Source: an uncultured Bacteroidales bacterium | GTDB lineage: Bacteria > Bacteroidota > Bacteroidia > Bacteroidales > WCHB1-69 | Assembly: GCA_946413585.1 (NCBI GenBank) | Contig: CAMKLG010000023.1 | Span: forward strand, 1 to 43,479 | Direction of reading: 5' to 3' | Length of the DNA stretch: 43,479 bases | Part shown: positions 11,049 to 41,669 of the stretch, piece after piece | Numbering within the stretch: position 1 is the stretch's first letter | Layout: every line of letters begins with the position of its first letter | Notes under the pieces: model-generated | What the model was told of the DNA's origin: nothing | The model's database searches: none | The model's input: only the letters and a program-made list of their open reading frames with translations | Translations under genes and position numbers: made by a program

Positions 11049-11651
11049 ATGAACCGAAAATATTGGATCATGCTGGCCGTAAGCATTCTGGCACTGATTG
11101 CCGTGATCTTATGGCCTGCTAAGAAACTGGAGAACGTACCTACGACTCCTGACAAAAATGAAATTTTAGGAATACTTCACGCACAGTCGCAGATAGCCAC
11201 CACGGAAGTGACCGTCCGCAAGATGGGTGTCTATGACTCTGAAACCCAAATCGCCTCGCTGAACCCAACAAAATGGAAACTTGGAAAACGCTTGGCCGTG
11301 ATTCCTGTCGATGTGACCATCCGCTACGGCATCGACCTCGCCGAGCTGAAAGAAAGCGACATCACTTTCATCGGCGAGGACTCCGTGCAAATTCGACTAC
11401 CTAAACCGAAAATCATCGACAAATCCTTCAATCCCATCACCAACCCGGACGAAATTGTGACCCTTTCCACTGGTTTGCGCGACAAAGTGGGCGAAACCAC
11501 CATCCAGCAAATCAAGAATATGGCCTTCGAAGACGTTCTCCACCAGGAAAAAGGTCTCCAACAACAACTCTCCGAAGAACTCACCCACAACACCGAAACC
11601 GTCTTCACCTCCCTCCTCACCGCCATCGGACTACACCCCATATTCATTTAG
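11049..11651 (+). CDS. DUF4230 membrane-anchored protein, copy 1
   Basis: 200 residues from the ATG downstream of the promoter box. Residues 5-22 form one hydrophobic N-terminal anchor (YWIMLAVSILALIAVILW). The rest is a DUF4230 domain, probably outside the membrane: it begins with a QSQIATTEVTVRKMG segment and has IPVDVTIRYGIDLAEL followed by a strand-rich part with VQIRLPKPKIID. The family's function is unknown. A second DUF4230 gene follows in the same direction, separated only by a structured repeat element that begins one base after this stop codon. Confidence 0.85.
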   Translation: MNRKYWIMLAVSILALIAVILWPAKKLENVPTTPDKNEILGILHAQSQIATTEVTVRKMGVYDSETQIASLNPTKWKLGKRLAVIPVDVTIRYGIDLAELKESDITFIGEDSVQIRLPKPKIIDKSFNPITNPDEIVTLSTGLRDKVGETTIQQIKNMAFEDVLHQEKGLQQQLSEELTHNTETVFTSLLTAIGLHPIFI

Positions 11652-11790
11652 ATATATTCCTTGAGCAGCCTCGGAGAGGCAAAACGCACGAAGTGCAAAT
11701 AACCCCATACAAGCGAAGCGCAGTGTGGGGTGTAAGCGAAGAAGATACGACAAGATGCTAATAACCCCACACAAGCGAAGCGCAGTGTGG
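11652..11790. repeat. Structured intergenic multi-hairpin element, copy 1
   Basis: Four hairpins in a row fill the gap between the two DUF4230 genes. H1 is GCCTC-GGA-GAGGC (11668-11680). H2 is GCAC-GAA-GTGC (11686-11696). H3 is CCCCATAC / GTGTGGGG (11703-11710, 11723-11730) around AAGCGAAGCGCA. H4 is CCACAC / GTGTGG (11767-11772, 11785-11790) around the same core. A homologous copy lies at 41557-41669, also between a stop and a start codon. Not a family that can be named from the sequence. Confidence 0.8.
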
Positions 11791-11811
11791 AAACAAACAA
11801 AACAAAAAAAA

Positions 11812-12405
11812 ATGAACCCGAAGTACATCAAATACGCCATCGTGATCATCCTGCTCGTCGCAGGTGTGGCGCTCTTCAGTAAAATCACGCATAAAACGGA
11901 CTCCGAAGTGATTACCCTAAAGGATACGCCTGCCGTCATCGAGGCGACACGGCCCATCGGAATTCTATACTTATACACCACTGTCACAGAAGATTATGTC
12001 AAGGACGCTTTCTGGGGCAGCGGCGTGGGCAGTTCGGTGTTAGGTAAAAACAACGGCCTCTTCAAGAAAAAACATGACTGCGTGCAAATCCTCAAGCAAC
12101 AGGTGAATCTGACCATGGACCTCGACAAAGTGCAGTACTCTCCCATCGAAGGTACTGATACCGTCCAGGTTTGCCTGCCCGATGTTGATTTCTCGCAATC
12201 CACGCTCTCTTCATGGTTCAAGTCGGATAGCGAAGCGGAAGAAAGTGCCGTGCAATTCGATGCCAAACCTATGATCCAGCGTGTGGAACGCAAAATCGAA
12301 CTGCGCTACAACACGCCCGAAAACCGTTGCAAGGCTGAAGAAAAAGCCAAGGAAACCATTGCCGAATTCCTGAAACAATGCGGGAAAACGGCGGTATTTG
12401 TGTAA
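11812..12405 (+). CDS. DUF4230 membrane-anchored protein, copy 2
   Basis: 197 residues. The frame is open upstream through the repeat element, but the ATG used gives a clean N-terminal anchor (YIKYAIVIILLVAGVALFS) and matches the first copy. The domain includes TEDYVKDAFWGSG, QQVNLTMDLDKVQYS, and a C-terminal helix RCKAEEKAKETIAEFLKQCG that resembles the end of DUF4230 proteins. It is diverged from copy 1, so the duplication is old. It ends 26 bases before a hairpin shared with the convergent terC gene. The function is unknown. Confidence 0.8.
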   Translation: MNPKYIKYAIVIILLVAGVALFSKITHKTDSEVITLKDTPAVIEATRPIGILYLYTTVTEDYVKDAFWGSGVGSSVLGKNNGLFKKKHDCVQILKQQVNLTMDLDKVQYSPIEGTDTVQVCLPDVDFSQSTLSSWFKSDSEAEESAVQFDAKPMIQRVERKIELRYNTPENRCKAEEKAKETIAEFLKQCGKTAVFV

Positions 12406-20039: not shown

Positions 20040-20060
20040 TTTGTTTTGTTTTTCATCGAA

Positions 20061-20126
20061 CATCATTGATCGATCATCATTGATCGATCATCATTGATCG
20101 ATCATCATTGATCGATCATCATTGAT
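20061..20126. repeat. 14-bp tandem repeat with palindromic core
   Basis: Four full copies and one partial copy of CATCATTGATCGAT in direct tandem. Each junction creates the palindrome TGATCGATCA. There are no spacers, so it is not a CRISPR. It lies between the adhesin terminator and the left end of the transposase element. Confidence 0.9.
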
Positions 20127-20171
20127 CATCATTCATTGAACACCCCAGGGCTCGCTACGCTCACCCTGGGC

Positions 20172-20202
20172 TGACATAGGTCGGGCTTTCAGCCCTTTTT
20201 GG
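20172..20202 (+). repeat. Left 31-bp inverted repeat of the transposase element
   Basis: Perfect reverse complement of 20886-20916. It contains GGGCT-TTC-AGCCC (20183-20195), which can fold alone in single-stranded DNA, as Y1 transposases require. Confidence 0.92.
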
Positions 20203-20414: not shown

Positions 20415-20927
20415 ATGTCACAATCATTATCAAAAAACCTCGTACACGCCATTTGGCATATCAAATACAACAGTCCGGAAATTCTCAAAGAGGACAGAAT
20501 TGAACTATACCAATATCTGAATACGCTATTCAACAAAAAAGGGTGTACCACTCTTCAAATCAACGGAGTGGGCAACCACGTACATGTATTATTTGCTCTA
20601 TCTAAAACCATCTCTTTGGCGAAAGTGATGGAATCCGTCAAGGCCATCAGCAGCAAATGGCTGAAAGCCAAAGGGAATCATTATGCCGGATTCGCATGGC
20701 AACCTGGATACGGTGCTTTCTCCGTAAGCGAATCCGTCTGTCCCAAAACCAAACGTTACATTGCACGACAAGAGGAACACCACCAACAGGTCACCGCTCA
20801 TGATGAATACATCCAACTCCTCACAAAGAACAATGTTCCTTTCGACGAACGATACCTCTTCGATTCCCCCAACACACAACCTCTTCCAAAAAGGGCTGAA
20901 AGCCCGACCTATGTCAACCTAGGGTGA
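20415..20927 (+). CDS. Y1 (IS200/RAYT-like) transposase
   Basis: 170 residues, the usual size for a Y1 HUH transposase. The HUH metal site is in NGVGNHVHVLFAL (about 50-62), and the likely catalytic tyrosine is in KRYIARQEEHHQ (about 113-124), followed by the family-typical KNNVPFDERYLFD. The enzyme would cut and join single-stranded DNA at hairpins. The last ~14 codons (PKRAESPTYVNLG) are encoded by the right inverted repeat and palindrome, so the gene runs into the element end. No tnpB-like partner is present. The coding sequence looks intact; whether it is active is unknown. Confidence 0.88.
   Translation: MSQSLSKNLVHAIWHIKYNSPEILKEDRIELYQYLNTLFNKKGCTTLQINGVGNHVHVLFALSKTISLAKVMESVKAISSKWLKAKGNHYAGFAWQPGYGAFSVSESVCPKTKRYIARQEEHHQQVTAHDEYIQLLTKNNVPFDERYLFDSPNTQPLPKRAESPTYVNLG
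20886..20916 (-). repeat. Right 31-bp inverted repeat of the transposase element
   Basis: Perfect reverse complement of 20172-20202, lying inside the last codons of the transposase gene. It has the GGGCT-GAA-AGCCC hairpin on the plus strand. Confidence 0.92.
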
Positions 20928-20976
20928 ACGCAGTGAGCCCTAGGACACAGAAGGAACGCAATGTGCCCTAGGACAC
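20926..20976. repeat. Direct repeat at the right end of the transposase element
   Basis: GAACGCAGTGAGCCCTAGG (20926 on) recurs 28 bases later as GAACGCAATGTGCCCTAGG (20954 on), both followed by ACAC. This duplicates the right palindrome arm. Confidence 0.8.
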
Positions 20977-30703: not shown

Positions 30704-30789
30704 ATTTTCTTGTTTGATTTTGTTGTTAATATTTACGTGGCTTTGGGTTTTTGGCTCTACCAAGCTTTTGCCCCTGTCGGGGCTGCTCA

Positions 30790-30849
30790 AGGAATTAGAT
30801 TGTCAATTCATATTGACTATTAACTTCAATAACCAATAACCCATAACCA
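30790..30849. repeat. Word-repeat spacer within the iorA-iorB gap
   Basis: It contains TTCAATAACCAATAACCCATAACC next to the iorA stop; the last 15 bases (30834-30848) equal those at 26339-26353 and 42295-42309. It is inside an apparent operon, so it is not a simple terminator. Confidence 0.6.
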
Positions 30850-39032: not shown

Positions 39033-41555
39033 ATGGATATCAAATATTCGGAAGAGATGAACTATATTTTGGCGGAATCCAACGAACTGGCCAAAGTATA
39101 TCACTCACAACAGATTGGATTAGAGCATCTTATGGTGTGTCTCCTCCGCTATCCTGGGGAGAGTGTCACCAAAAAGATTTTCAACATATTTCAGATTGAT
39201 TTGAATGGGATGCGCACACGCTTGGAACAAATGCTGGAGATGCCTGACAGTCAGGCTGACAACCCCGAAGCCAAGATTCCCATCAGCGTGCAAGCGCAGG
39301 GAAGATTACACCTATCTTACTTGTTCTCAAAACAATACAGAAGTGATGTGGTAGAATCTTACCATTTGGTATTGGCTATTCTGAAGCCAGCACAACTTGA
39401 CAGTCAGAACACCATAAAGGTGATGCTGGCGCAGGCGGGGCTCAACTTCCAAACCTTTGAAGACGAGCTGCGCCATGAGCTCCATCTTGCCGAACCGACT
39501 GCCGCTACACATCAGATGATGGGTGACGACGACGACGATGAAAACGACCGCCGCACAGGAATGAAAAAGGGAAAAGAGAACGGGAAATCTGCCACCCCGA
39601 TGCTCGACAGCTTCGGTAAAGATTTGACCAAGATGGCTGCCGAAGGCAAGATTGACCCTGTGGTGGGCCGACAGAAAGAATTGGAACGCATCGCCCAAAT
39701 TTTGTGTCGCCGCAAGAAGAACAACCCCGTGCTGATTGGTGAACCTGGTGTAGGTAAATCCGCTTTGGCTGAAGGACTTGCGTTGCAAATTTCCTCTGGT
39801 CATGTATCACGCACACTCATGCACAAGCGCATCGTCAGTCTTGACATGGCCGGTCTTGTGGCGGGCACCAAATACCGCGGACAATTCGAAGAGCGCGTGA
39901 AGACCATCCTCGAAGAGCTGGAGAAGAACACCGATGTCATTCTCTTCATTGACGAGTTGCACACGATGGTGGGTGCCGGCAACGCTCCCGGCAGCATGGA
40001 TGCTTCCAACCTCTTCAAACCCGCACTAGCCCGCGGCGAACTGCAATGTATCGGGGCTACCACGTTGGACGAGTACCGCGAGCACATTGAAAAGGATGGT
40101 GCACTGGAACGCCGTTTCCAGAAAATCATCCTCGAACCTGCCACGCCCGAAGAGACCCTCGACATCCTCAACAACATCAAGGACAAATACGAAGAGCACC
40201 ACGCCGTGAGATACAACGACGATGCCATCAAGGCTTGCGTATCCATGTCAAACCGTTATATATCAGACCGTTGTCTTCCAGACAAGGCCATTGACGTGAT
40301 GGACGAAGCGGGTGCGCGTTTGCATATTCAAAACATCCACGTTCCGGAAGAATTGCTGGCAGCGGAGGCCGCCATCGAAGAACAGGAGAAGCTGAAAGTG
40401 GAAGCTATTCGCAACCAGCAATACAACGAGGCCGCCAAGTATCGCGACCAAATCAAGATGTTGGAGGAAGAGCGGCAGATGATTCAGAAAACATGGGAAA
40501 ACAACGTGAACGAAAACCGTCCTGATGTCACGGAAGACACTGTGGCAGAGGTAATCGCTATGATGACAGGCGTACCCGTGCAACGCATTGCCAAGAACGA
40601 AGGTGAGCGTCTGATGCGCATGGCCAACGAGTTGCAAGGGGTGGTCATTGGACAGGACGAGCCTGTGGTGAAGATTGCCAAGGCTATCCGCCGAAACCGC
40701 GCCGGCTTGAAGGATCCCAACAAGCCGATCGGAACCTTTATCTTCCTTGGACCCACAGGTGTTGGCAAAACCTATTTGGCAAAAGTATTGGCCGAGTATC
40801 TCTTTGATTCCCAAGATGCTATCATCCGCATCGACATGAGCGAATATATGGAGAAGCACACGGTGTCGCGCCTCATCGGTGCGCCTCCGGGATATGTAGG
40901 TTACGAAGAAGGCGGTCAACTCACCGAAAAGGTTCGCCGCAAGCCCTACTCTATTGTGCTGTTGGACGAGATCGAGAAGGCTCATCACGACGTGTATAAC
41001 GTTCTACTTCAGGTATTTGACGAAGGTCAACTCACAGACGGCATGGGTCGTAAGGTCGATTTCAAGAACACCATCATCATCATGACCTCTAACGTGGGTA
41101 CCCGCGAGCTGAAGGACTTCGGCACGGGCATGGGGTTCAGCACCGATGCCACCAAGTCGGCAGAACAGAAGGTGGCGCAGGGAATTCTCGAAAAGGCACT
41201 CAAAGCGACCTTCGCGCCCGAATTCCTCAACCGCGTGGATGATGTCATCTACTTCAACAGTCTTGACAAAGAGGACATTGGCAAAATTATCGACATCGAA
41301 TTGAAGAAAGTGTTGCAGCGCGTCAAGGATTTGGACGTAGAGATTCGCATCACCGAAAAAGCGAAGAACTTCCTTGTGGAGAACGGTTGGGATGCCAACT
41401 ACGGCGCACGCCCGCTGAAACGCACCATCCAGAAGTACGTCGAAGATGTCCTGGCCGAGGAAATCCTCAACATGACGCTCGTCTCCGGCGACTCCGTCGA
41501 ACTCGACTACGACGACCTCAAAGAGGAGATGTTAGTAACTCATGTCAACCCATAG
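39033..41555 (+). CDS. clpC: Clp protease ATP-binding subunit ClpC
   Basis: 840 residues. N-terminal Clp repeats ([33 protein letters not shown]), first AAA+ domain with [16 protein letters not shown] near residue 235 and [15 protein letters not shown], a middle region with the UVR-type helix [20 protein letters not shown] (about 460-480), and second AAA+ domain with [19 protein letters not shown] near 565 and [15 protein letters not shown]. The short middle domain and UVR motif set it apart from ClpB. It unfolds proteins for ClpP; clpP is not in the window. A linker (about 160-185) is rich in D, E and K. The multi-hairpin element begins two bases after the stop. Confidence 0.94.
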
Positions 41556-41556
41556 T

Positions 41557-41669
41557 ATATATTCCTTGAGCAGCCTCGGAGAGGCAAGACGCGCGAAGCG
41601 CAATTAACCCCACACAAGCGAAGCGCAGTTTGGGGGAGAAAGAAACCACACAAGCGAAGCGCAGTTTGG
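41557..41669. repeat. Structured intergenic multi-hairpin element, copy 2
   Basis: Homologous to 11652-11790. H1 GCCTC-GGA-GAGGC (41573-41585) is identical; H2 is GCGC-GAA-GCGC (41591-41601), with a compensatory change relative to copy 1; H3 is CCCCACAC / GTTTGGGG (41608-41615, 41628-41635); H4 is CCACAC / GTTTGG (41646-41651, 41664-41669). It fills the gap between clpC and kdsC. Confidence 0.8.

Follow-up and report, generated by a model that had tools for sequence, protein, structure and literature searches.

The described systems closest to the element reported here are the REP/REPIN repeats with their RAYT (TnpA-REP) enzymes, the IS200/IS605 insertion sequences, the TnpA-Y1 enzymes of subclass 1.2, and the Rfam family Acido-Lenti-1. 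Y1 enzymes work on single-stranded DNA, and the known IS200-type examples discussed by Quentin et al. (2018; PMC6006769) target the lagging-strand template of replication. That classification assigns subclass 1.2 the signature Y---Q--HH, and its Table 1 lists the subclass as REP "no" and as generally without typical terminal IS200 structures. In the open-access literature, we found neither a REP for subclass 1.2 nor an earlier account of the present element.

The window—the whole stretch of DNA analyzed, 43,479 nucleotides of contig CAMKLG010000023.1—comes from an uncultured Bacteroidales bacterium (GCA_946413585.1; 2.98 Mb in 125 contigs, hereafter the own genome). It holds two copies of a multi-hairpin intergenic element that we call class 1, a third head-bearing unit that we call class 2, and a Y1 transposase gene:

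11652–11790, + strand: copy 1, a class 1 element with AT-rich ATATA, head TTCCTTGAGCAG, hp1, hp2, hp3, a spacer, and a second hp3.
11657–11668, + strand: head TTCCTTRAGCAG, whose last G opens hp1; found in dispersed units and missing from most units around transposase genes.
11668–11680, + strand: hairpin 1 (hp1), GCCTC-GGA-GAGGC, with compensatory changes at two of five pairs.
11686–11696, + strand: hairpin 2 (hp2), GCAC-GAA-GTGC, with an A-U/G-C exchange at one pair (39 versus 28 of 70).
11703–11730, + strand: hairpin 3 (hp3, REP-like), CCCCATAC-AA-GCG-AAG-CGC-A-GTGTGGGG, with TAA just before it.
11765–11790, + strand: second, truncated hp3 of copy 1.
20415–20927, + strand: Y1 (IS200-like, PF01797) transposase gene of the Y---Q--HH type (YIARQEEHH), the second of the own genome.
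30740–30794, − strand: class 2 unit, head + GCCCCGACAGGGGC + AAAAGCTTGGTAG and no hp3; model R1 match of 23.6 bits.
41557–41669, + strand: copy 2, a class 1 element between the clpC-like and HAD hydrolase genes, with an extra hp3 at 41646–41669.

The preliminary description of this DNA had noted the two class 1 copies, and its observations stood. The two gaps align over their whole length, and the boundaries given for them were right to 1–2 bases: copy 1 starts immediately 3′ of the TAG at 11649–11651 and ends about 20 bases before the next ATG, and copy 2 starts one base past the TAG at 41553–41555 and ends about 18 bases before the next ATG. The two copies carry four local hairpins each, arranged alike (hp1, hp2, hp3, and a second, shorter hp3), with consensus GCCTC-GGA-GAGGC for hp1, GCRC-GAA-GYGC for hp2, and CCCCAYAC...GTKTGGGG for hp3. 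The flanking genes are unrelated: DUF4230/DUF4230 at copy 1 and, by domains, an AAA+ protein of ClpC type with a HAD-type hydrolase after it, compatible with KdsC, at copy 2. The names clpC and kdsC are labels that we presume for the latter pair from domain matches.

Against dinucleotide shuffles, fold stability reaches z = −4.7 for copy 1 and z = −2.8 for copy 2. The lowest-energy fold of the whole of copy 1 pairs its two hp3 units with each other, so that its four separate hairpins are a local rather than a global optimum. Covariance model R1 matches copy 1 at 11657–11731 (103.8 bits) and again at 11733–11793 (25.4 bits), and copy 2 at 41562–41636 (100.8 bits); the scores of 103.8 and 100.8 bits arise by construction, because both window copies sit in the alignment of the model.

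Class 1 elements follow the plan head TTCCTTRAGCAG, hp1, hp2, NNNTAA, hp3, and then zero or more extra hp3. Being dispersed, extragenic, palindromic, and present in many copies, they resemble REP/REPIN repeats, with which they also share compensatory changes in stems, low numbers in divergent gaps, and a Y1 transposase gene with repeat units to either side, although not at every locus here. They differ in having three different hairpins and a head, whereas a REP has one hairpin with a GTAG foot. The GTAG/GTGG foot of REPs is replaced in class 1 by NTAA before hp3, whereas class 2 and some gene-adjacent units have GGTAG. RAYT enzymes carry Y---NP, whereas the Y1 proteins here carry Y---Q--HH. 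Convergent gaps, described as a common place for REPs (PMC3733652), hold few class 1 elements, and class 1 is strongly sense, whereas REPs in BIMEs alternate in orientation according to the description in PMC2817692. We do not file class 1 as a GTAG REP, because it lacks the GTAG foot and the enzymes lack the RAYT motif. With IS200/IS605 the system shares the Y1 catalytic core; unlike those elements, it combines a low-copy gene and multi-hairpin flanks bearing direct and inverted units with a dispersed unit that is a short intergenic repeat containing neither tnpA nor any other gene. The match to TnpA-Y1 subclass 1.2 extends to signature, similar size, and a Bacteroidota host, although inverted repeats flank the genes here, in contrast to the absence of REP and terminal structures entered for that subclass (PMC6006769). 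The element is REP-like in kind and fits as a candidate repeat family of subclass 1.2.

Copy number is high within one genus. With copy 1 as query, the own genome gives at least 59 matches at E ≤ 10 and at least 41 rows at E < 1e-15, including two overlapping rows of a single array, hence about 40 strong copies rather than two (40 of 85 first-look candidates scored in both counts). A search of 60 genomes found matches in 33, namely the own genome and 32 of 35 congeners, and in none of the 24 genomes of other families. Of 40 genomes of the genus, the own genome among them, 33 contain the head pattern TTCCTTRAGCAGYCYCG, a count that lumps class 1 and class 2 units; numbers run from 0 to 81 per genome, and the reversed control is absent from all 40. 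Named records bearing the head pattern are Bacteroidales/Bacteroidetes, many titled as rumen or ruminant-gut isolates (80 of at least 104 stretches listed). Across the order, model R1 matches 12 of 295 genomes, own included; matches are strong in the genus only (3 of 4 congeners drawn) and weak in the nine others, some of which follow a like plan: a small hairpin, a linker with TAAC at its end, and a long hairpin with GCG-CGC inside.

The fold is conserved. In an alignment of 70 distinct copies (68 from a random 70 of the 181 better-scoring hits and two added by hand, one of them a window copy), 96.2% of pair cells in the three-hairpin core are standard pairs. Double-sided changes occur at 6 of 20 pairs, a level reached by 4 of 500 shuffles, and the covariation score is reached by none of 500 shuffles and lies above all slid versions. 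Pair types are not in excess, their number being reached by 223 of 500 shuffles, and inner hp3 pairs are partly misaligned, 22 of 70 copies being unpaired at one pair. In a wobble test for strand, G-U cells outnumber A-C cells 24 to 12, but stand at 10 versus 11 without pair 54-77. Chance similarity of two copies, or copies in coding sequence without conserved folding, had been named as what would speak against the element; copies are instead many, their fold is conserved, and overlaps of more than 30 bp with a called gene are limited to 3 of 217 class 1 hits.

An AT-rich tract precedes the head (78% A+T at −17 to −1, versus 60% in co-directional gaps). The 5′ end of the element is uncertain, because a few copies, compared by eye, stay similar further upstream. 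A promoter in this tract was considered, and the motif TAnnTTTG was not seen there by eye. Directly 5′ of the head, several copies (e.g., L085, L098, L116, and L166) carry a repeat AATTCCCCTTCT..AGAAGGGGTGCCCGAAGGGCGGGGTAGT, which has 13 hits, nine of them sense between co-directional genes.

Orthologous junctions differ between species in whether they carry the element. At the clpC–HAD junction, both genes are present in 25 of 30 fetched loci: 5 carry class 1, 2 carry remnants, 2 carry Acido-Lenti-like units, and 16 are empty, with empty gaps of 7 to 88 nt; two of the five class 1 loci share a site. The five loci without the second gene include one (L283) that bears an element. At the DUF4230 junction, 9 of 25 loci carry an element, 1 is doubtful, and 15 are empty. 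Three of the nine share a site; the copies are sense, and some are variants, one lacking hp2. Empty gaps there run from −4 (overlapping genes) to 207 nt, 14 of 15 being below 90. Among the fetched loci, other gene pairs provide 75 further comparisons of an occupied with an unoccupied locus; among 17 of these, many spacers align poorly. The differing positions across species indicate that gaps were filled by repeated gains rather than by descent of one fixed element. The preliminary description had offered "a mobile non-coding repeat" as one reading, and the junctions, the 135 gene-pair clusters described below, and the Y1 transposase link support it: The element is mobile on the genus time-scale. 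We infer the movement itself from these comparisons, and no excision, circle, or transposition event was seen.

The accompanying claim of the preliminary description, that each copy fills its gap exactly, holds for the boundaries. Exactness is partly a by-product, because without the insert the same gaps are tiny or overlapping (7–44 nt or overlapping genes in several congeners) and the insert makes up most of the gap. The DUF4230 genes at 11049–12405 of the window, split here by the element, overlap or nearly abut in several congeners.

Placement and orientation are strongly biased. In a placement set of 298 sequences (2.19 Mb; genes called by a hexamer-based script), the 217 class 1 hits, 215 with the head, fall as follows: between co-directional genes, 182 lie sense and 6 antisense; 9 are in divergent and 4 in convergent gaps; 13 lack one neighbor; and 3 are in genes. 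Counting each gene pair once (135 clusters) leaves 120 sense, 3 antisense, 8 divergent, and 4 convergent (sense versus antisense, binomial P = 6e-32). Clusters with several copies are wholly sense in 40 of 42 cases, the exceptions being one four-copy antisense and one two-copy divergent cluster. An 843-kb contiguous sample (the window, six own-genome contigs, and two of genome G021) contains 32 hits, Y1-adjacent units included: 23 sense, 2 antisense, 3 divergent, 2 convergent, and 2 at edges. Its gaps of at least 30 bases amount to 94 kb between co-directional, 42 kb between divergent, and 24 kb between convergent genes; element density in this sample is biased because the contigs were chosen from earlier match lists, and orientation and gap make-up should be little affected. 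No solo tail hairpin lay more than 150 bp from any element in the sample at the tolerance used. Within a junction the position is not fixed: The distance from the stop runs from 6 to 201 nt at the DUF4230 junction. Of the "strict insertion site" once suggested, strictness therefore remains for orientation and near-confinement to co-directional gaps and not for position.

The two strands of the element differ in what they would do to a transcript. A terminator-like stem with a T-tract is present on the antisense strand of 141 of 217 class 1 copies and on the sense strand of none, which dismisses an intrinsic terminator in the sense direction. Because the antisense strand carries stem and T-tract, antisense copies in operons would tend to be lost, and selection against them probably explains part of the orientation bias. 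Polarity selection alone does not explain the scarcity in convergent (4/135) and divergent (8/135) gaps: Such a filter should leave these gaps open, yet few copies are there, which points to insertion favoring transcribed spacers or to a retained benefit.

Three further repeat families lean sense like class 1, in small numbers: per gene pair, sense versus antisense is 12 to 1 for class 2, 16 to 2 for the Acido-Lenti-like family, and 9 to 1 for the GGGGTAGT family. Terminator-like antisense strands occur in 19 of 32 Acido-Lenti-like units (sense, 0); under the same criterion they occur in 0 of 18 class 2 and 1 of 13 GGGGTAGT units, though both families are sense-biased. Class 2 has head and hp1 in common with class 1 and then continues with AAGAGCTYGGTAG; one of its 18 hits overlaps a class 1 hit. 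The class 2 unit of the window has a GGTAG foot and no long hairpin, and lies sense between two minus-strand genes.

Homologous hairpin units adjoin Y1 transposase genes. The own genome has two such genes, one on contig 18 and the window gene at 20415–20927. Hairpins near-identical to hp3 adjoin the former (G000:C18), which sits among hp3-like units with GGTAG or GGTAA feet; its final codons pass through a repeat-like hairpin, CCATCTCTTCGAGATGG (L060, 1948–1964). The window gene has no class 1 units at its flanks; an inverted pair of Acido-Lenti-1 units lies there instead. Among 30 Y1 loci picked by similarity to the own-genome gene, which is included, the element profile matches at E ≤ 1e-5 within 11, and the other 19 have no class 1-like unit at that threshold. 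The matches are mostly multi-hairpin units without a head, and in several cases such units lie to either side of the gene and face both ways; units beside Y1 genes being mostly headless, the spreading unit is not identical to the gene-adjacent one. Flanking repeats were also compared with cross-locus pairs, a conservative control because it includes related loci. Sufficient flank was available at 67 loci. There, inverted repeats lie above the 95th percentile of the control at 25 of the 42 loci in the genus and at 18 of the 25 in other families, and direct repeats do so at 27 and 15, respectively. In other families, G132 has 20 repeat matches in four clusters, one at a Y1 gene, and G232 has 6 matches, 2 at Y1 genes and 4 elsewhere.

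The enzymes form a uniform type. Among 76 distinct Y1 proteins, whose loci were selected through PF01797 or resemblance to protein P0001 (Y1 matches without a locus excluded), Y---Q--HH occurs in all 76 and Y---NP in none; [DN]HxH, the HuH motif, matches in 75 and was not found in L189. P0001 passes the NCBIfam model transpos_IS200 (65 versus a cut-off of 55), which the window Y1 protein misses (50.2 versus 55), and the two own-genome Y1 proteins score 32.9 and 21.9 bits on REP_Tyr_transpos against a cut-off of 80. The median number of heads is 25 in genomes whose Y1 proteins include one at least 50% identical to P0001, and 2.5 in the others (20 versus 20 genomes; Mann–Whitney P = 0.0026, kinship ignored). 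No such relative was found in G013 (64 heads) or G002 (50 heads), and G032 has a relative and no heads.

We consider it probable (roughly 0.7) that class 1 is a miniature, non-coding, REP-like repeat of Bacteroidales that is moved in trans by a subclass 1.2 Y1 transposase and survives almost solely in sense orientation. The stand-alone Y---Q--HH enzyme would recognize the repeat hairpins as single-stranded DNA and mobilize the non-coding units in trans, and these would spread into gaps between genes. Sense copies present hairpins followed by A-rich sequence, which is not terminator-like. Antisense copies present hairpins followed, in most, by T-rich tracts; they would probably cut an operon short and so tend to vanish. 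Transposition by the Y1 enzyme and a contribution of polarity selection to the bias are the two parts of this scheme that we infer.

Transcription might instead set the direction of insertion, the enzyme attacking the exposed single-stranded non-template strand so that copies land sense in transcribed spacers; we regard this as possible but doubtful. The 120-to-3 sense bias with few copies in convergent or divergent gaps would follow from it, as would repeated gains at one junction that differ in stop distance and are all sense, and the wholly sense state of 40 of 42 multi-copy clusters. It would also accommodate a bias common to families of unlike sequence, two of them without a terminator-like antisense strand, and the action of Y1 enzymes on single-stranded DNA described in PMC6006769. 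However, the IS200-type targets given in that source lie on the replication lagging-strand template, not in transcription, and selection would yield the very same orientation pattern within co-directional gaps. A broader proposal, that Bacteroidota subclass 1.2 enzymes have their own REP-like system, in which repeats enter operons in the direction of transcription rather than only being kept in it, is tentative and on balance rather improbable. If true, it would describe a transposition process oriented by transcription. Class 1 is in any case a candidate substrate for the Y1 subclass left without one in the classification of PMC6006769, and the strength of the bias makes it testable whether transcription steers insertion or selection clears terminator-like insertions. 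Repeats have, moreover, remodeled the operon spacers of these rumen bacteria again and again.

An RNA-level job was the other reading offered in the preliminary description. Retention for such a job between cistrons (processing, protection of mRNA 3′ ends, or insulation of translation), whatever the origin of the element, is unlikely. Sense orientation, location inside probable operons, and the conserved fold are what such a role would lead one to expect, but the element is spread over 135 gene-pair clusters and often missing at the same junction in congeners, the bias is common to other repeat families, and the strand-specific folding signal disappears without pair 54-77. A dedicated cis-regulatory RNA family, riboswitch- or leader-like, is highly improbable even for a sense, structured element upstream of a start codon, since an Rfam scan of the whole window gave no match to the class 1 element for this or any other known RNA family, there is no fixed distance to either gene, and it is missing from 16 of 25 orthologous loci at one window junction and from 15 of 25 at the other. 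Relative to both, the trans-mobilized repeat remains our preferred reading.

For RF01687 (Acido-Lenti-1), the Rfam scan of the whole window matched only the unit at 20144–20196 and not the class 1 element. This match (Rfam strand +) and one at 20892–20944 (Rfam strand −), just at the gathering score, form the inverted pair around the window Y1 gene, and a similar inverted pair flanks the Y1 gene of a relative in L268. When 20 of 89 Y1 loci were scanned, Acido-Lenti-1 reached the gathering score in these two. By eye, Acido-Lenti-1 resembles class 1 in plan (TTCC, small hairpin, linker, and long hairpin with inner stem), and it also shares the sense bias and the inverted pairing at a Y1 gene. 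Its sequence is its own, however, model R1 reaching Acido-Lenti-1 units at E 0.11 and 0.16 only. The strand modelled by Rfam is the terminator-like one (GGGCTTTCAGCCCTTTTT), opposite to the strand that is mostly sense in these operons. RF01687 may be a transposase-linked DNA repeat rather than an sRNA. Tandem copies of ATCATTGATCGATC lie at about 20057–20140 of the window, just upstream of the first Acido-Lenti-1 unit.
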